A DNA stretch of 64,000 nt from Pelagerythrobacter rhizovicinus (GTDB lineage Bacteria > Pseudomonadota > Alphaproteobacteria > Sphingomonadales > Sphingomonadaceae), in the NCBI RefSeq assembly GCF_004135625.1, contig NZ_SDPV01000002.1, positions 744,001-808,000 on the forward strand. Direction: 5' to 3'. Under the pieces are notes generated by a model that was given only the letters and a program-made list of their open reading frames with translations, searched no databases and was not told the origin of the DNA. The translations under genes and the position numbers were made by a program. Below, piece after piece: positions 47,528-52,962 of the stretch; the first letter of the stretch is position 1; each line of letters starts with the position of its first letter.

Positions 47528-47566
47528 AGGGAGCGCCGCAGGCGCGGAAGCGTGAGGGACGAAGCG

Positions 47567-47818
47567 ATGCCGAAGGTCTTCGACTGGCGCGGGTATCGCT
47601 TTTACTTCTATTCGGAGGAAGGCACTCCGCTCGAACCGCCGCATGTCCATGTCCGGAAAGATGGAAGCGAGGCGAAGTTCTGGCTTCGCCCCTTCGTCAG
47701 CGTGGCATATAATCGGGGTTTCAGCGGAATCGTGCTACGACGTCTCGCGCAGCAAGTGATCGAGAATCGCGAACGGATAGAGGCGGCTTGGAATGGGTAC
47801 TTTACCGGAAATGACTGA
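47567..47818 (+). CDS. DUF4160 family protein
   Basis: 83 residues from ATG 47567, with GAGGGA (47553-47558) as SD. The family pattern is clear: MPKVFDWRGYRFYFYSEEG, EPPHVHVRKDGSEAKFWLRP, and a C-terminal helix around VIENRERIEAAW. The function is unknown. Members commonly occur beside a DUF2442 gene, as here, in a compact toxin-antitoxin-like arrangement. Its end overlaps the next gene. Confidence 0.85.
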   Translation: MPKVFDWRGYRFYFYSEEGTPLEPPHVHVRKDGSEAKFWLRPFVSVAYNRGFSGIVLRRLAQQVIENRERIEAAWNGYFTGND

Positions 47819-48068
47819 ATTTCCCGAGCCGAAGGAGGTTCGGTTCGATGAAGCGAGCTTCTGGGTGACGCTCAGCGACGGCCGCGTCATAGGGGTCCCC
47901 ATCGCCTGGTATCCGCGCCTAATGAGCGCCACGCGTGAGCAACTCGAAAAAGTCGAACTTTCGGCGAGCGGAATGCACTGGGACGAGATCGACGAAGATA
48001 TTTCGGTGCGCGGCATTCTGATGGGGCACAAGGCTTTCCGTCCGCAATCCGCGGCGATGGCGAACTGA
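47793..48068 (+). CDS. DUF2442 family protein
   Basis: 91 residues if it starts at ATG 47793, 85 if at ATG 47811, which overlaps the DUF4160 stop. Hallmarks: VRFDEASFWVTLSDGRVIGVPIAWYPRL and HWDEIDEDISVRGIL. DUF2442 folds as a small beta domain related to NE0471. It is co-translated with DUF4160 and probably forms a complex with it; a regulatory or toxin-antitoxin role is inference. Confidence 0.85.
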   Translation: MGTLPEMTEFPEPKEVRFDEASFWVTLSDGRVIGVPIAWYPRLMSATREQLEKVELSASGMHWDEIDEDISVRGILMGHKAFRPQSAAMAN

Positions 48069-49098: not shown

Positions 49099-49139
49099 GG
49101 GTCACTTGACCGGGCTCGCGCCGCCGGTAGGTTCGCTAT

Positions 49140-49655
49140 GTGCCGTTGTTCGAACCACTCCCGGATCTGCTCGAGGTCTACCGGGCAATTCCCGGCCCCA
49201 TGCTGTTCGGGGTCGCGCTGGCGGTGGTCGCTCCTGTTGTTTCGGGGACCTGGGCGCACCTTCGCCATTGGTGGTTGAACAAGCGGCTCGAACGGCGGCT
49301 GGCGCGCGACGGGTACATGCTCGTCGAGGAGCATCGCGACCATCTTTTCGCGATAGGCGACGAGCCCGCGCCGATCGATTGGTCCGCAATAGCGCTGAAC
49401 GCGTTGATCAACGTCCTGCTCGTCGGCGCGGCTGGGATGATGTTCGCGCTCGGCCGAGAATGGGAATGGGAGATCGCCCTCCTGGGGGCGGGAATTCTCG
49501 GCATGCTCTTCGGCCTGTGGTGCCGGATGAACGCTCCGGAGCCAGACCCTTTCGGACCGCCCGAGACGACGATACCTGTCGAAGCCATATTCGGCTTTGC
49601 CGGCGCAATCGCGCTCGTGGGTACGGTGGTGGCCGCACTCGTCTTCCTGGTTTGA
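49140..49655 (+). CDS. Predicted membrane protein of unknown function
   Basis: 171 residues from GTG 49140. One hydrophobic helix near the N-terminus (MLFGVALAVVAPVV, about 21-34), a cytoplasmic charged segment (LERRLARDGYMLVEEHRDHLFA), then three helices (about 83-103, 109-126 and 147-171). No family is recognised. Divergent from the stress-protein gene; its start codon and weak SD make the 5' end uncertain. Confidence 0.6.
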   Translation: MPLFEPLPDLLEVYRAIPGPMLFGVALAVVAPVVSGTWAHLRHWWLNKRLERRLARDGYMLVEEHRDHLFAIGDEPAPIDWSAIALNALINVLLVGAAGMMFALGREWEWEIALLGAGILGMLFGLWCRMNAPEPDPFGPPETTIPVEAIFGFAGAIALVGTVVAALVFLV

Positions 49656-49846
49656 TTGCCCCCGGTTATCCCCACCCTATCGCGCGCGCCCGTTTTGGCG
49701 TGCCCGGCGGCGGGCATAGTGTCGTTCGCCTGACGCGCGCGCCGGGGGAGCGATTCGCGGATGCGGGGCCTTGCCGCCCCGTGCGGTCCGCCCCTCGCAA
49801 GGATCCCTCCCGGCGCCCGCAAACCGATTCACATGCCCGCCCCGAT

Positions 49847-49885: not shown

Positions 49886-50950
49886 ATGTCCCTTCTCGAA
49901 GCCCGCAAGACCTACAAGCCGTTCGAATACCCGTGGGCTTACGACTTCTGGAAGCGCCAGCAGCAGATCCACTGGATGCCCGAGGAAGTGCCGCTGGGCG
50001 AGGACTGCCGCGACTGGGCGCAGAAGCTCTCCGATCACGAGCGCAACCTGCTCACCCAGATCTTCCGCTTCTTCACCCAGGCCGACGTCGAGGTGCAGGA
50101 TTGCTACCACGAGAAATACGGCCGCGTGTTCAAGCCGACCGAGATCAAGATGATGCTCGCCGCCTTCTCCAACATGGAGACCGTGCACATCGCCGCCTAT
50201 TCGCACCTGCTCGACACGATCGGCATGCCCGAAAGCGAATACGGCATGTTCCTCGAATACGAGGAGATGAAGGCCAAGCACGACTACCTGCAGCAGTTCG
50301 GCGTCGACAGCGACGAGGACATCGCCCGCACGCTGGCGATGTTCGGCGGCTTCACCGAGGGGCTGCAGCTCTTCGCCAGCTTCGCCATGCTGATGAACTT
50401 CCCGCGCTTCAACAAGATGAAGGGCATGGGCCAGATCGTCAGCTGGTCGGTCCGCGACGAGAGCCTGCACTGCGAAGGCATCACCCGCCTGTTCCACGCC
50501 TTCGTGCAGGAGCGCGACTGCCTGACCAAGGCGGTCAAGGAAGACATCATGGACATGTGCCAGAAGACGGTGCGGCTGGAGGATGCCTTCATCGACCTCG
50601 CGTTCGAGCAGGGCCCGGTGCCGGGGATGACGGCGAAGGAGATCAAGCACTACATCCGCTACATCGCCGACTGGCGCCTGGGCCAGCTCGGCCTGCCCGC
50701 GATCTACATGGTCGAGGACCACCCGCTCCCCTGGCTCGCCCCGCTGCTCAACGGCGTGGAGCACGCCAACTTCTTCGAAACCCGCGCGACCGAGTATTCG
50801 AAGGGCGCGACCAAGGGCAACTGGCAGGACGTCTGGTCGAGCTTCGACAAGCGCCAGAAGGCCAAGAAGGGCGAGGAAGCGAACGACCTCGGCGATGAAG
50901 GGCCGGGGCTGTTCGGGGATGGTGAGAGCGGGAGCGTGGCGGCGGAGTGA
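49886..50950 (+). CDS. nrdB: Ribonucleoside-diphosphate reductase, beta subunit
   Basis: 354 residues from ATG 49886 (GGAG seven bases upstream). The diiron/tyrosyl-radical site is visible: an acidic ligand in TQADVEVQDCYH, then ETVHIAAY, which places Glu, His and the radical Tyr at the spacing of class Ia NrdB, and RDESLHCEGI with the later Glu and His ligands. The C-terminal tail is acidic. No ATP-cone is present. It supplies the radical to NrdA, and is under its own NrdR-type site rather than in an operon with nrdA. Confidence 0.94.
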   Translation: MSLLEARKTYKPFEYPWAYDFWKRQQQIHWMPEEVPLGEDCRDWAQKLSDHERNLLTQIFRFFTQADVEVQDCYHEKYGRVFKPTEIKMMLAAFSNMETVHIAAYSHLLDTIGMPESEYGMFLEYEEMKAKHDYLQQFGVDSDEDIARTLAMFGGFTEGLQLFASFAMLMNFPRFNKMKGMGQIVSWSVRDESLHCEGITRLFHAFVQERDCLTKAVKEDIMDMCQKTVRLEDAFIDLAFEQGPVPGMTAKEIKHYIRYIADWRLGQLGLPAIYMVEDHPLPWLAPLLNGVEHANFFETRATEYSKGATKGNWQDVWSSFDKRQKAKKGEEANDLGDEGPGLFGDGESGSVAAE

Positions 50951-50956
50951 TGCGAA

Positions 50957-52423
50957 ATGGCGAAGCTTTGTTTCAACGAGAGTGAAATCAGGGCGCTCTT
51001 TGGTTCCGAAGACGCTGAAAATGAATCTGCGGAGCGGTTTCGCGAATATTTCGTGAAGAATCGTGCCTATGAGAATTTGCGGGCCGACCTGCCCCTCAGA
51101 ATCCTGGTGGGCCACAAAGGGGTCGGAAAGAGCGCGCTACTTCGCTATTCGCACGAGGAAGACATTTCAAAGGGAATACTGAGTATATTCCTGAAGCCAG
51201 ATGACCTATCTGAGCTATTGAATGTCGGGCCAGACGTAGAAATCAATTCCCTCATAGATGCTTGGAAAACTGGCATAAAGCGCGCTGTCGCGGACAAAGC
51301 CATTGAGAATGCCACTGAGGGCGCGGTCGACAAAGTTGATCAGAGTATAGTGACTATAGGAGCCCGGAAGCTATCTGCGGTCGTGCGGGACGCACTGAAG
51401 GCTTACCAGCCTAGAATCGCGGATGCGGCTCAGACGGTGGTATATGAGAACTTCCTTTATAAAAACCGGGTGAATATTTATATCGATGATATCGATCGAG
51501 GATGGTCCGCTAGACCCCAAGACATCGTCAACATCTCAGCTCTCATAAATGCTCTCAAGGACATATCTGCAAAAGATGCAAACGTTCAATGCCGAATTGG
51601 CATCAGAACGGATGTGTATTTTCTGGTTAGAACCTCAGATGAGTCTACCGACAAAATAGAGCAAGATATCATAAGGCTAAAATGGACGAATGATGAAATT
51701 CTTCGTCTAATGGCGTTTAGGATATCGACATTTCTTAAACTACCGTACTCCCGGACTGCAATTGCCGCAATGAGCCAGAATGCAATTAACAGAGACGTTC
51801 TGTCTCACGTCATGGAGCCCAAGTTTCACGGAAGAGGTAAATGGGAGAATGAGAGGACACATCGGGTGATGATGTCTTTGTGTCGCGCCCGCCCCAGGGA
51901 TCTTGTGAAGTTACTCCACGGGGCCGCACGGAAAGCCGCTGAAAAGGGGCTTAGTGTGATATCTACTCAGAATTTTCTTGACAGCTTTGAGCCGTATTCT
52001 GAGGAACGCCTTCAAGATCTTTTTAATGAGTTCAAAAGTGAAGTGTCAAATATCAGCAACTTCATTATGCAATTTAAACCAACCAAGGTGCAAAGGACAG
52101 CGAAAGAGAACTATCATTATTCTAATGACCAAATGATTGTGAGGATCAAGCAGGCGAGAGCTGCTGCGCCAATAAGGTTCGCTAGCGGACGGATAGTAAC
52201 GGACAGGGCGGTTTTGACGTTCCTTTATAAGATTGACTTCATCGTCGCCCGTTTTGATGAGTGCGGAGTAGCTAAATGGCGATTCTACGATCAGGGTCGT
52301 TTTCTTGCACATGAGGCCACCGAGTTCGGAAATTCGTGGGAAGTTCATCCCGCCTACCGCTGGGCACTACAGCCACATGATGTTCAGGGCGTGATCGATA
52401 CCGTCGCCGTCGCAGAAGCGTAG
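50957..52423 (+). CDS. P-loop ATPase, Sll1717-like; likely acquired
   Basis: 488 residues, starting six bases after the nrdB stop. Walker A GHKGVGKS (52-59) and Walker B NIYIDDIDRGW (about 173-183) are intact. An RIGIRTDVYFLVRT strand and ESTDKIEQDIIRLKWTNDEI suggest a KAP/STAND-like NTPase fold such as the Sll1717 family. Residues about 290-390 read like a helical domain. Its base and codon use is far more AT-rich than all neighbours (roughly half A+T), a sign of transfer. No partner gene is adjacent. A role in defence or DNA-associated stress is inference. Confidence 0.75.
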   Translation: MAKLCFNESEIRALFGSEDAENESAERFREYFVKNRAYENLRADLPLRILVGHKGVGKSALLRYSHEEDISKGILSIFLKPDDLSELLNVGPDVEINSLIDAWKTGIKRAVADKAIENATEGAVDKVDQSIVTIGARKLSAVVRDALKAYQPRIADAAQTVVYENFLYKNRVNIYIDDIDRGWSARPQDIVNISALINALKDISAKDANVQCRIGIRTDVYFLVRTSDESTDKIEQDIIRLKWTNDEILRLMAFRISTFLKLPYSRTAIAAMSQNAINRDVLSHVMEPKFHGRGKWENERTHRVMMSLCRARPRDLVKLLHGAARKAAEKGLSVISTQNFLDSFEPYSEERLQDLFNEFKSEVSNISNFIMQFKPTKVQRTAKENYHYSNDQMIVRIKQARAAAPIRFASGRIVTDRAVLTFLYKIDFIVARFDECGVAKWRFYDQGRFLAHEATEFGNSWEVHPAYRWALQPHDVQGVIDTVAVAEA

Positions 52424-52569: not shown

Positions 52570-52790
52570 ATTACAGGAAGCCCGCTGCGGGATCTTGAGC
52601 TGGCCCGGGGTCCAGCCGCCGGCGTAGCCGACGCGATTGGCCGGCACGGCGAGCGTGTACTCTACCCCGGCGAGCAGCCAGAAATTAGGATTACCCCAGC
52701 CGAGCGGGCGCGCGTTGGCGACCTCCCGTCCGCCCTTCGGGTGCCAGTATCGGGCGGCGGTTATAAATATGTTCGACGGGGCCAGCCGGG
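52570..52790 (-). pseudogene. DUF486 family remnant
   Basis: On the minus strand the translation between about 52776 and 52585 reads SNIFITAARYWHPKGG, then FWLLAGVEYTLAVPANRVGYAGGW and GQLKI. This matches the middle of DUF486 (DMT-like small membrane proteins), whose hallmark is EYxxQVPANRIGY followed by QLKxxQE. Both the N-terminal helix and everything after QLKIPQ are missing or out of frame, and substitutions such as YWHPK for YGHLK look like decay. No intact reading frame exists. The rest of 52424-53060 shows no other gene. Confidence 0.6.
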
Positions 52791-52962
52791 CGAGATGGAA
52801 GTCTATCGAGAAATGGGTTCCGCCATGAAGGCGGTCGAGGACGCGGAAGCCTCCGCCGAAGAGGGTGCAGGAGATCGGCCAGGCCGATGCGATCAAGGAC
52901 GGCGCGCGCTAGCCGCACTGGCGATCGGCACGAGGACCGGGCCCTTATCCGTCCCGCTCTGA

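Follow-up and report, generated by a model that had tools for sequence, protein, structure and literature searches.

What is a lone, AT-rich ATPase gene doing directly behind the gene for the small subunit of ribonucleotide reductase, and how did it come to lie there? In the 64,000-nucleotide stretch of Pelagerythrobacter rhizovicinus DNA that was analysed (the window), the core gene nrdB (49886..50950, + strand, 354 aa) ends in a TGA at 50948-50950, and the spacer TGCGAA (50951..50956, + strand) separates it from the ATG at 50957 of a gene for an AAA+ ATPase of 488 aa (50957..52423, + strand), which was delimited by sequence, profile search and composition and starts 9 nt downstream of a GGAG within nrdB. 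On re-reading of the sequence, the coordinates, strand and six-base spacer reported from a first inspection of the letters (the sequence-only reading) proved exact, and the sharp contrast in composition on which that reading had dwelt is real. The GC content of the ATPase gene is 0.48 against a window mean of 0.671, and a GC scan, with 0.611 as the lowest value for any 1.4-kb segment elsewhere, shows that no other part of the window comes near the gene in AT content. The codon ATA occurs 14 times in the ATPase gene and never in nrdB, AAA 15 times against once, and AGA, CTA and ATT are likewise used in the former and almost never in the latter. The ATPase covers the whole of the NF047389 profile (Sll1717 family; positions 1-454 of 454) at 223.7 bits, with a cut-off of 75, and we therefore conclude that the gene is not decaying; the Walker A (GHKGVGKS) and Walker B (IDDID) motifs are intact, as first described, and the same match upholds the assignment to the Sll1717-type ATPases. 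The description of the gene as one without a partner also holds; inspection by eye of the ORFs around it picked out no integrase, and a scan confined to sigma-70 promoters found none above chance before the gene.

The nrdB 3' flank was compared among relatives, as the sequence-only reading had proposed. The ATPase gene was absent from all six congeners compared, so it is not a common possession of close relatives, and it was present in just 2 of 299 genomes of the host family (the Sphingomonadales family of the source genome). Together with the foreign composition, this supports the proposed horizontal acquisition. The place behind nrdB is filled by a different occupant in nearly every congener: an AAA ATPase with a 198-aa protein that is Toprim-like by eye (G005), a 181-aa protein (G001), of which G002 and apparently G003 hold decayed relatives, and a 283-aa protein resembling, by eye, a proteasome-type hydrolase (G006; L042:7996-8844, - strand; MTVCVSVKVHDCLIFAADSASS...), while in G004 the site is empty. 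The notion that an ATPase gene beside nrdB is an arrangement peculiar to the source genome thus had to be abandoned in favour of a hotspot that runs through the whole family and whose cargo mostly differs from species to species.

The left edge of this slot is sharply drawn. nrdB was found in 160 of 160 host-family genomes tested, and it closes with the codons GCGGCGGAG-stop, which hardly vary across the family and include the Shine-Dalgarno-like GGAG core. Sequence information amounts to about 2 bits at the fixed positions of these codons and to about 0 from the first base after the stop, a drop that any gene end would show among divergent genomes; yet between congeners with 92-98% DNA identity in the nrdB region, homology likewise breaks off no more than a couple of bases from the stop codon. 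In 15 genomes the start codon of the cargo lies between -4 and +12 relative to the nrdB stop, and we infer that the terminal GGAG of nrdB serves as the ribosome-binding site for some cargo. The right edge seems more ragged. Behind the ATPase gene, the unstranded segment 52424..52789 between the cargo and the resumed core flank has no blastn match to congeners, and 52790..52912 (+ strand) is a 3' remnant of a gene whose product carries ACSVxxDYRVPTNLELA (blastn E 1e-22; tblastn aligns it with the terminal codons of the G001 protein). This gene is intact after nrdB in congeners and begins at +10 in the empty site of G004, where its product holds ...ACSVVPGYRIPTNLELV.... Because the neighbour survives here only as its last codons, insertion of the ATPase gene must have replaced or deleted most of it.

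Two further irregularities lie upstream. A region encoding a small membrane protein (49100-49657) is missing in two congeners, in which homology jumps from 49099 to 49658, indicating an indel. Directly after the nrdA stop, at 47552-48068, lies a pair of genes that are DUF4160-like and DUF2442-like by eye, and on this side of nrdA homology to congeners breaks after about 60 bp, beyond which other sequence follows, suggesting that there may be a second variable spot, a smaller one, 3' of nrdA.

The extent of the phenomenon was assessed in 91 host-family genomes, including 80 added after the congener comparison. An AT-rich ORF lies within 300 bp of the nrdB stop in 61 of them and is co-directional with nrdB in 53 of the 61 (binomial p 3e-9); the cargo has a median extent of 1.46 kb and stays within 2 kb in 58 of 61 cases, keeping in mind that the ORF caller, with its GC threshold and distance limit, favours AT-rich, compact cargo by construction. 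An independent measure, the GC content of the first 1 kb downstream compared with that of the gene itself, gave the same picture: a deficit of more than 6 GC points relative to the gene occurs in 53 of 90 nrdB flanks, and in 3 of 30 flanks each of nadB, of nrdA and of an ABC transporter gene. Since the 91 genomes lean towards nearer relatives than the control set, the paired count matters, and within the same genomes an AT-rich flank was found in 9 of 15 cases for nrdB vs. 2 of 15, 1 of 14 and 0 of 14 for the three control genes. One relative (G010, locus L186) has an AT-rich insert after nadB, its GC content 21 points below that of nadB. In most species, then, the nrdB stop is followed by a different AT-rich cargo of one or two genes, without recognisable mobility genes or terminal repeats.

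The diversity of this cargo is considerable, with 63 of 100 cargo ORFs lacking a homologue among the other cargo ORFs. Pfam and NCBIfam profiles matched to 81 cargo proteins, in counts where some matches may fall on the same protein, include the restriction families NaeI (2), BglII, NotI (2), GmrSD (2), HNH and a phosphorothioate-DNA restriction enzyme, the methylases C5 (3) and MT-A70, and further TIR (4), ThsB TIR, SIR2, HEPN, AAA_15/21 OLD-like ATPases (4) and NACHT, as well as DarT, SocA, SocB, HipA-like and 8xMP proteins. Among the 25 of 71 families listed for the control flanks, the largest proteins downstream of the control genes are an M13 peptidase, the small chain of ribonucleotide reductase, hydrolases and metabolic enzymes; these families are mostly metabolic or regulatory, with one BglII. 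Judged by its predicted domains, the recognised slot cargo is strongly of a defence kind. About two thirds of the cargo proteins have no domain recognised by Pfam or NCBIfam, and the slot therefore need not be reserved for defence.

Five nrdB slots (L048, L071, L079, L103 and L139) carry the same two-gene system, represented in L048 by an MT-A70/BglII-like pair, in either orientation. The first proteins of these pairs are about 75-83% identical and the second between 24 and 66%, and a stable first protein coupled to a divergent second one suggests fast turnover of the restriction half.

The cargo shows few of the usual signs of mobility. Pfam recognised no integrase or transposase family among the 81 cargo proteins, bar one weak match to a TniB-type ATPase. 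A copy of the nrdB end beyond the cargo, as an att-type duplication would leave, was sought in 61 loci and rejected, the longest shared words being equal to the null, and a tRNA, tmRNA or Rfam RNA as attachment site was likewise dismissed, with none near the ATPase gene. The absence of an att site noted at the outset is thus borne out by the lack of a tRNA or Rfam RNA nearby and by end-repeats that are short and chance-like. The slot does not look like an integrase-borne genomic island, in that it contains no clear mobility family and its end repeats are no longer than the null.

The history of the ATPase itself is tied to nrdB within the host family. Both of the 299 genomes with the gene carry it after nrdB (in G288 its ATG follows TAA-GAG), and an alignment query recovered two more orthologues, in Sphingopyxis sp. 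L1A2A, with about 0.4 kb between nrdB and the ATPase gene, and in an Erythrobacter metagenome-assembled genome, where the ATPase copy looks truncated; in both, nrdB lies directly upstream. All four host-family orthologues found therefore sit in the nrdB slot and are co-directional with nrdB. They are about 50% identical, which raised the possibility of independent arrivals; this was rejected because in the tree they form one clade with support of 100/98. No nrdB was seen in the stretches read around homologues outside this four-member clade, including that of a distant (26%) Novosphingobium relative. A single lineage bound to the nrdB address, which would circulate by exchange or be lost repeatedly, fits the tree better, and such a lineage would be consistent with exchange by recombination through nrdB.

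Beyond the host family, the ATPase is mobile, patchy and encoded by a single gene. Sll1717-type ATPases occur in 15 of 385 genomes of the host class; scans of genome and viral collections with the single sequence returned 0 loci, and an alignment query returned 70 and 11 loci, respectively, most of the genome-collection loci being read within +/-6 kb. Copies reside on plasmids, on viral contigs with phage-like genes (one of them identical to a Martelella copy), and at one end of the genome of the Pf inovirus PfAC09, where the product is annotated as a 'DNA-binding protein'. The copy of Arenimonas, a gammaproteobacterium, is close to a Rhizobium copy in the tree, and in hosts with a GC content above 0.55 the ATPase gene is more than 8 points more AT-rich than its flanks in 44 of 45 loci. 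One Nostoc copy lies near a CBASS-type nucleotidyltransferase/E2 pair; most family genes inspected outside the host family stand alone among other chromosomal genes and not in defence islands. On the Paracoccus plasmid pFER4 (L034) the ATPase gene lies between two genes that are TniQ-like by eye, near a transposase/ATP-binding pair, and this copy is possibly Tn7-like cargo.

What the protein might do was approached through its domains and predicted fold. Across 46 homologues, K54, G55, G57, K58 and S59 of the Walker A motif (residues 52-59; 51110..51133) are invariant, as are D177 and D180 among the Walker B acidic residues D177-D180 (51485..51496). An RxD motif (51605..51613), in which R217 is invariant and D219 nearly so, may correspond to sensor 1, and an RPRD motif in the AAA+ lid (51890..51901; R312, P313 and R314 invariant) is probably sensor-2-like; these elements, like the segment for a C-terminal winged-helix domain (residues ~366-471; 52052..52369), all lie on the + strand. 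The winged helix comes from an AlphaFold2 model built from 46 sequences (mean pLDDT 87.5, pTM 0.86), in which the protein consists of an AAA+ core, a helical lid and the winged helix, and it is covered by full-length fold matches spanning residues 5-473. The model shows neither a repeat sensor domain nor any apparent nuclease, TIR or other effector fold. The expectation that residues 200-488 would hold an effector thereby found no support, and an effector fold in this part was rejected: the predicted structure has the AAA+ lid and winged helix there instead. The best fold matches are the archaeal ATPases SSO1545 (Z 14.1) and PABY2304 (Z 13.7), with Orc/Cdc6, TnsC and NLR nucleotide-binding modules all within about 1 Z unit of the best; 1w5t aligns at Z 13.2 (rmsd 5.1, 334 residues, over model residues 5-473). 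According to its predicted structure, the ATPase is an ORC/Cdc6-STAND-like AAA+ core with lid and C-terminal winged helix and without a fused effector.

The profile searches proposed for this gene matched no housekeeping family. The sole Pfam match, PF24389 (ORC-CDC6-like), is marginal (28.1 against a gathering score of 27) and confined to residues 15-67, and two homologues weakly match an orc1/cdc6 model. A KAP model, the affiliation suggested at first, was not among the Pfam matches at E up to 1, where HMMER filters may drop weak ones; no model of PADLOC-DB 2.0 matched at E up to 1, and a sequence search of the PDB gave no match. The model NF053860 (DS41_1 anti-phage protein), presumably named after the validated anti-phage system DS-41, scores 35.6 bits, where its equivalog cut-off is 370; the match to our ATPase covers the N-terminal P-loop region, and such weak matches recur in 31 of the 46 homologues. 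We know of no described function for the Sll1717 family, and a literature search, with many journals outside its scope, found no mention of Sll1717.

Set beside known systems, the ATPase is a full-length member of the Sll1717 family, with the conserved GxKGxGKS, IDDxD and RPRD. DS-41, a validated anti-phage system of DefensePredictor (PMC13092281), is of similar size (448 positions in NF053860) and, given the low score, at best a sister family. The ORC/Cdc6-type ATPases, including BrxC and BrxD of BREX (PMC12839542), archaeal Orc1/Orc2 and TnsC, share the AAA+ core, lid and winged helix; identity to them is about 8-16%, and the ATPase of the window stands alone, without genes for replication or BREX in its vicinity. 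Structural similarity to AAA+ proteins that bind DNA does not establish a function, and NLR/STAND proteins score about the same. As far as our search reached, the family that the ATPase newly joins is catalogued but apparently undescribed. The slot, in turn, resembles the hotspots cDHS1 and cDHS2 of Pseudomonas aeruginosa (PMC10250203) and those of E. coli (PMC10121019) in its fixed core flank and its variable cargo with many defence families, often with no detectable mobile element. The Pseudomonas hotspots are larger (medians of 26 kb for cDHS1 and 6 kb for cDHS2), have RNA genes in their flanks and often contain transposases or other mobile genes (PMC10250203), whereas the occupant of the nrdB slot is usually a single small system (<2 kb); the slot starts at a protein-coding stop codon, has no clear mobility family and is family-wide. 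Literature on nrdB as a defence hotspot was not found in a search with many journals outside its scope, and the slot has apparently not been described as such so far.

Cumulatively, we consider it probable that the ATPase gene is a horizontally acquired, single-gene defence against phages or other mobile elements lodged in the nrdB slot, the defence role suspected from the start being supported by association. An unlikely alternative is that the nrdB 3' end is permissive for any AT-rich foreign gene and that the ATPase is a stress-related or regulatory AAA+ protein or a selfish gene. The cargo proteins without a recognised domain, about two in three, and the solitary setting of Sll1717 members elsewhere would suit such a site, whereas the predominance of defence families in the recognised cargo, set against the mostly metabolic or regulatory control families with one BglII among the 25 of 71 listed, and the occurrence of the ATPase in phages and plasmids speak for immunity. 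It is highly improbable that an integrated element has left the protein behind, as an ORC-like factor for replication initiation or maintenance: the ORC/Cdc6 fold, the inovirus annotation and the two weak orc1/cdc6 matches would accord with it, but no other element genes adjoin the ATPase gene, which is alone in almost all class-level neighbourhoods inspected. We give next to no credence to a housekeeping partner of ribonucleotide reductase, despite the adjacency and shared direction in all four host-family orthologues; the distribution refutes it, with the ATPase absent from 297 of 299 host-family genomes though nrdB is universal, and the foreign composition and the unrelated genes in the same place in sister species argue against it as well.

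With defence as the preferred reading, the mechanism is a separate matter. As the ATPase has no fused effector, we favour direct action on DNA by ATP-dependent assembly: in the ATP-bound state it would use its winged helix and AAA+ ring to assemble on DNA that invades the cell or on a phage trigger, and the assembly would block phage DNA replication or transcription directly and not by a nuclease. Such clamping would resemble the DNA-clamping AAA+ assemblies of the ORC/TnsC type, and by this analogy we put it forward tentatively. The main rival, which concerns mechanism and leaves defence untouched, is a STAND/NLR-like sensor that would recognise a phage protein, oligomerise and act via a host partner or abortive infection. 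Full-length matches to the NB-ARC and winged-helix modules of NLR/CED-4 proteins (9qlv, Z 13.2; 4m9s, Z 12.3) are tied with those to ORC and TnsC, and the RTD motif of the ATPase recalls the TTRD of NB-ARC proteins. We regard this trigger model as doubtful, given that the predicted structure has neither repeat sensor nor effector domain and that Foldseek, ranking solved chains by E-value, places Orc1/Cdc6 and BREX BrxC (9zll, rank 3) nearest.

For the slot, homologous recombination in the conserved nrdB side would exchange one cargo for another, leaving a ragged right end, and the cargo would be expressed by read-through from nrdB, in some cases with the GGAG of the nrdB end as ribosome-binding site. 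A bolder version, which we think rather unlikely, treats the nrdB 3' end as a dedicated cassette slot that works without an integrase: single immune systems, exchangeable for one another, would be wired to the ribonucleotide reductase gene, borrow its transcription and GGAG, and rise in step with dNTP synthesis under DNA stress or infection.

Next to the core defence hotspots of Pseudomonas and E. coli, the nrdB slot is apparently one that is smaller, usually holds a single system and is shared across a family. It raises the question of how defence genes reach one exact stop-codon position without integrases, and whether linkage to nrdB affects their expression. For the host family it means that the gene after nrdB is, in about two of three genomes of our sample, compact and foreign-looking and often an immune system; and as many occupants have no known domain, the slot offers a catalogue of candidates for new defence systems, none too large for cloning with its native context.
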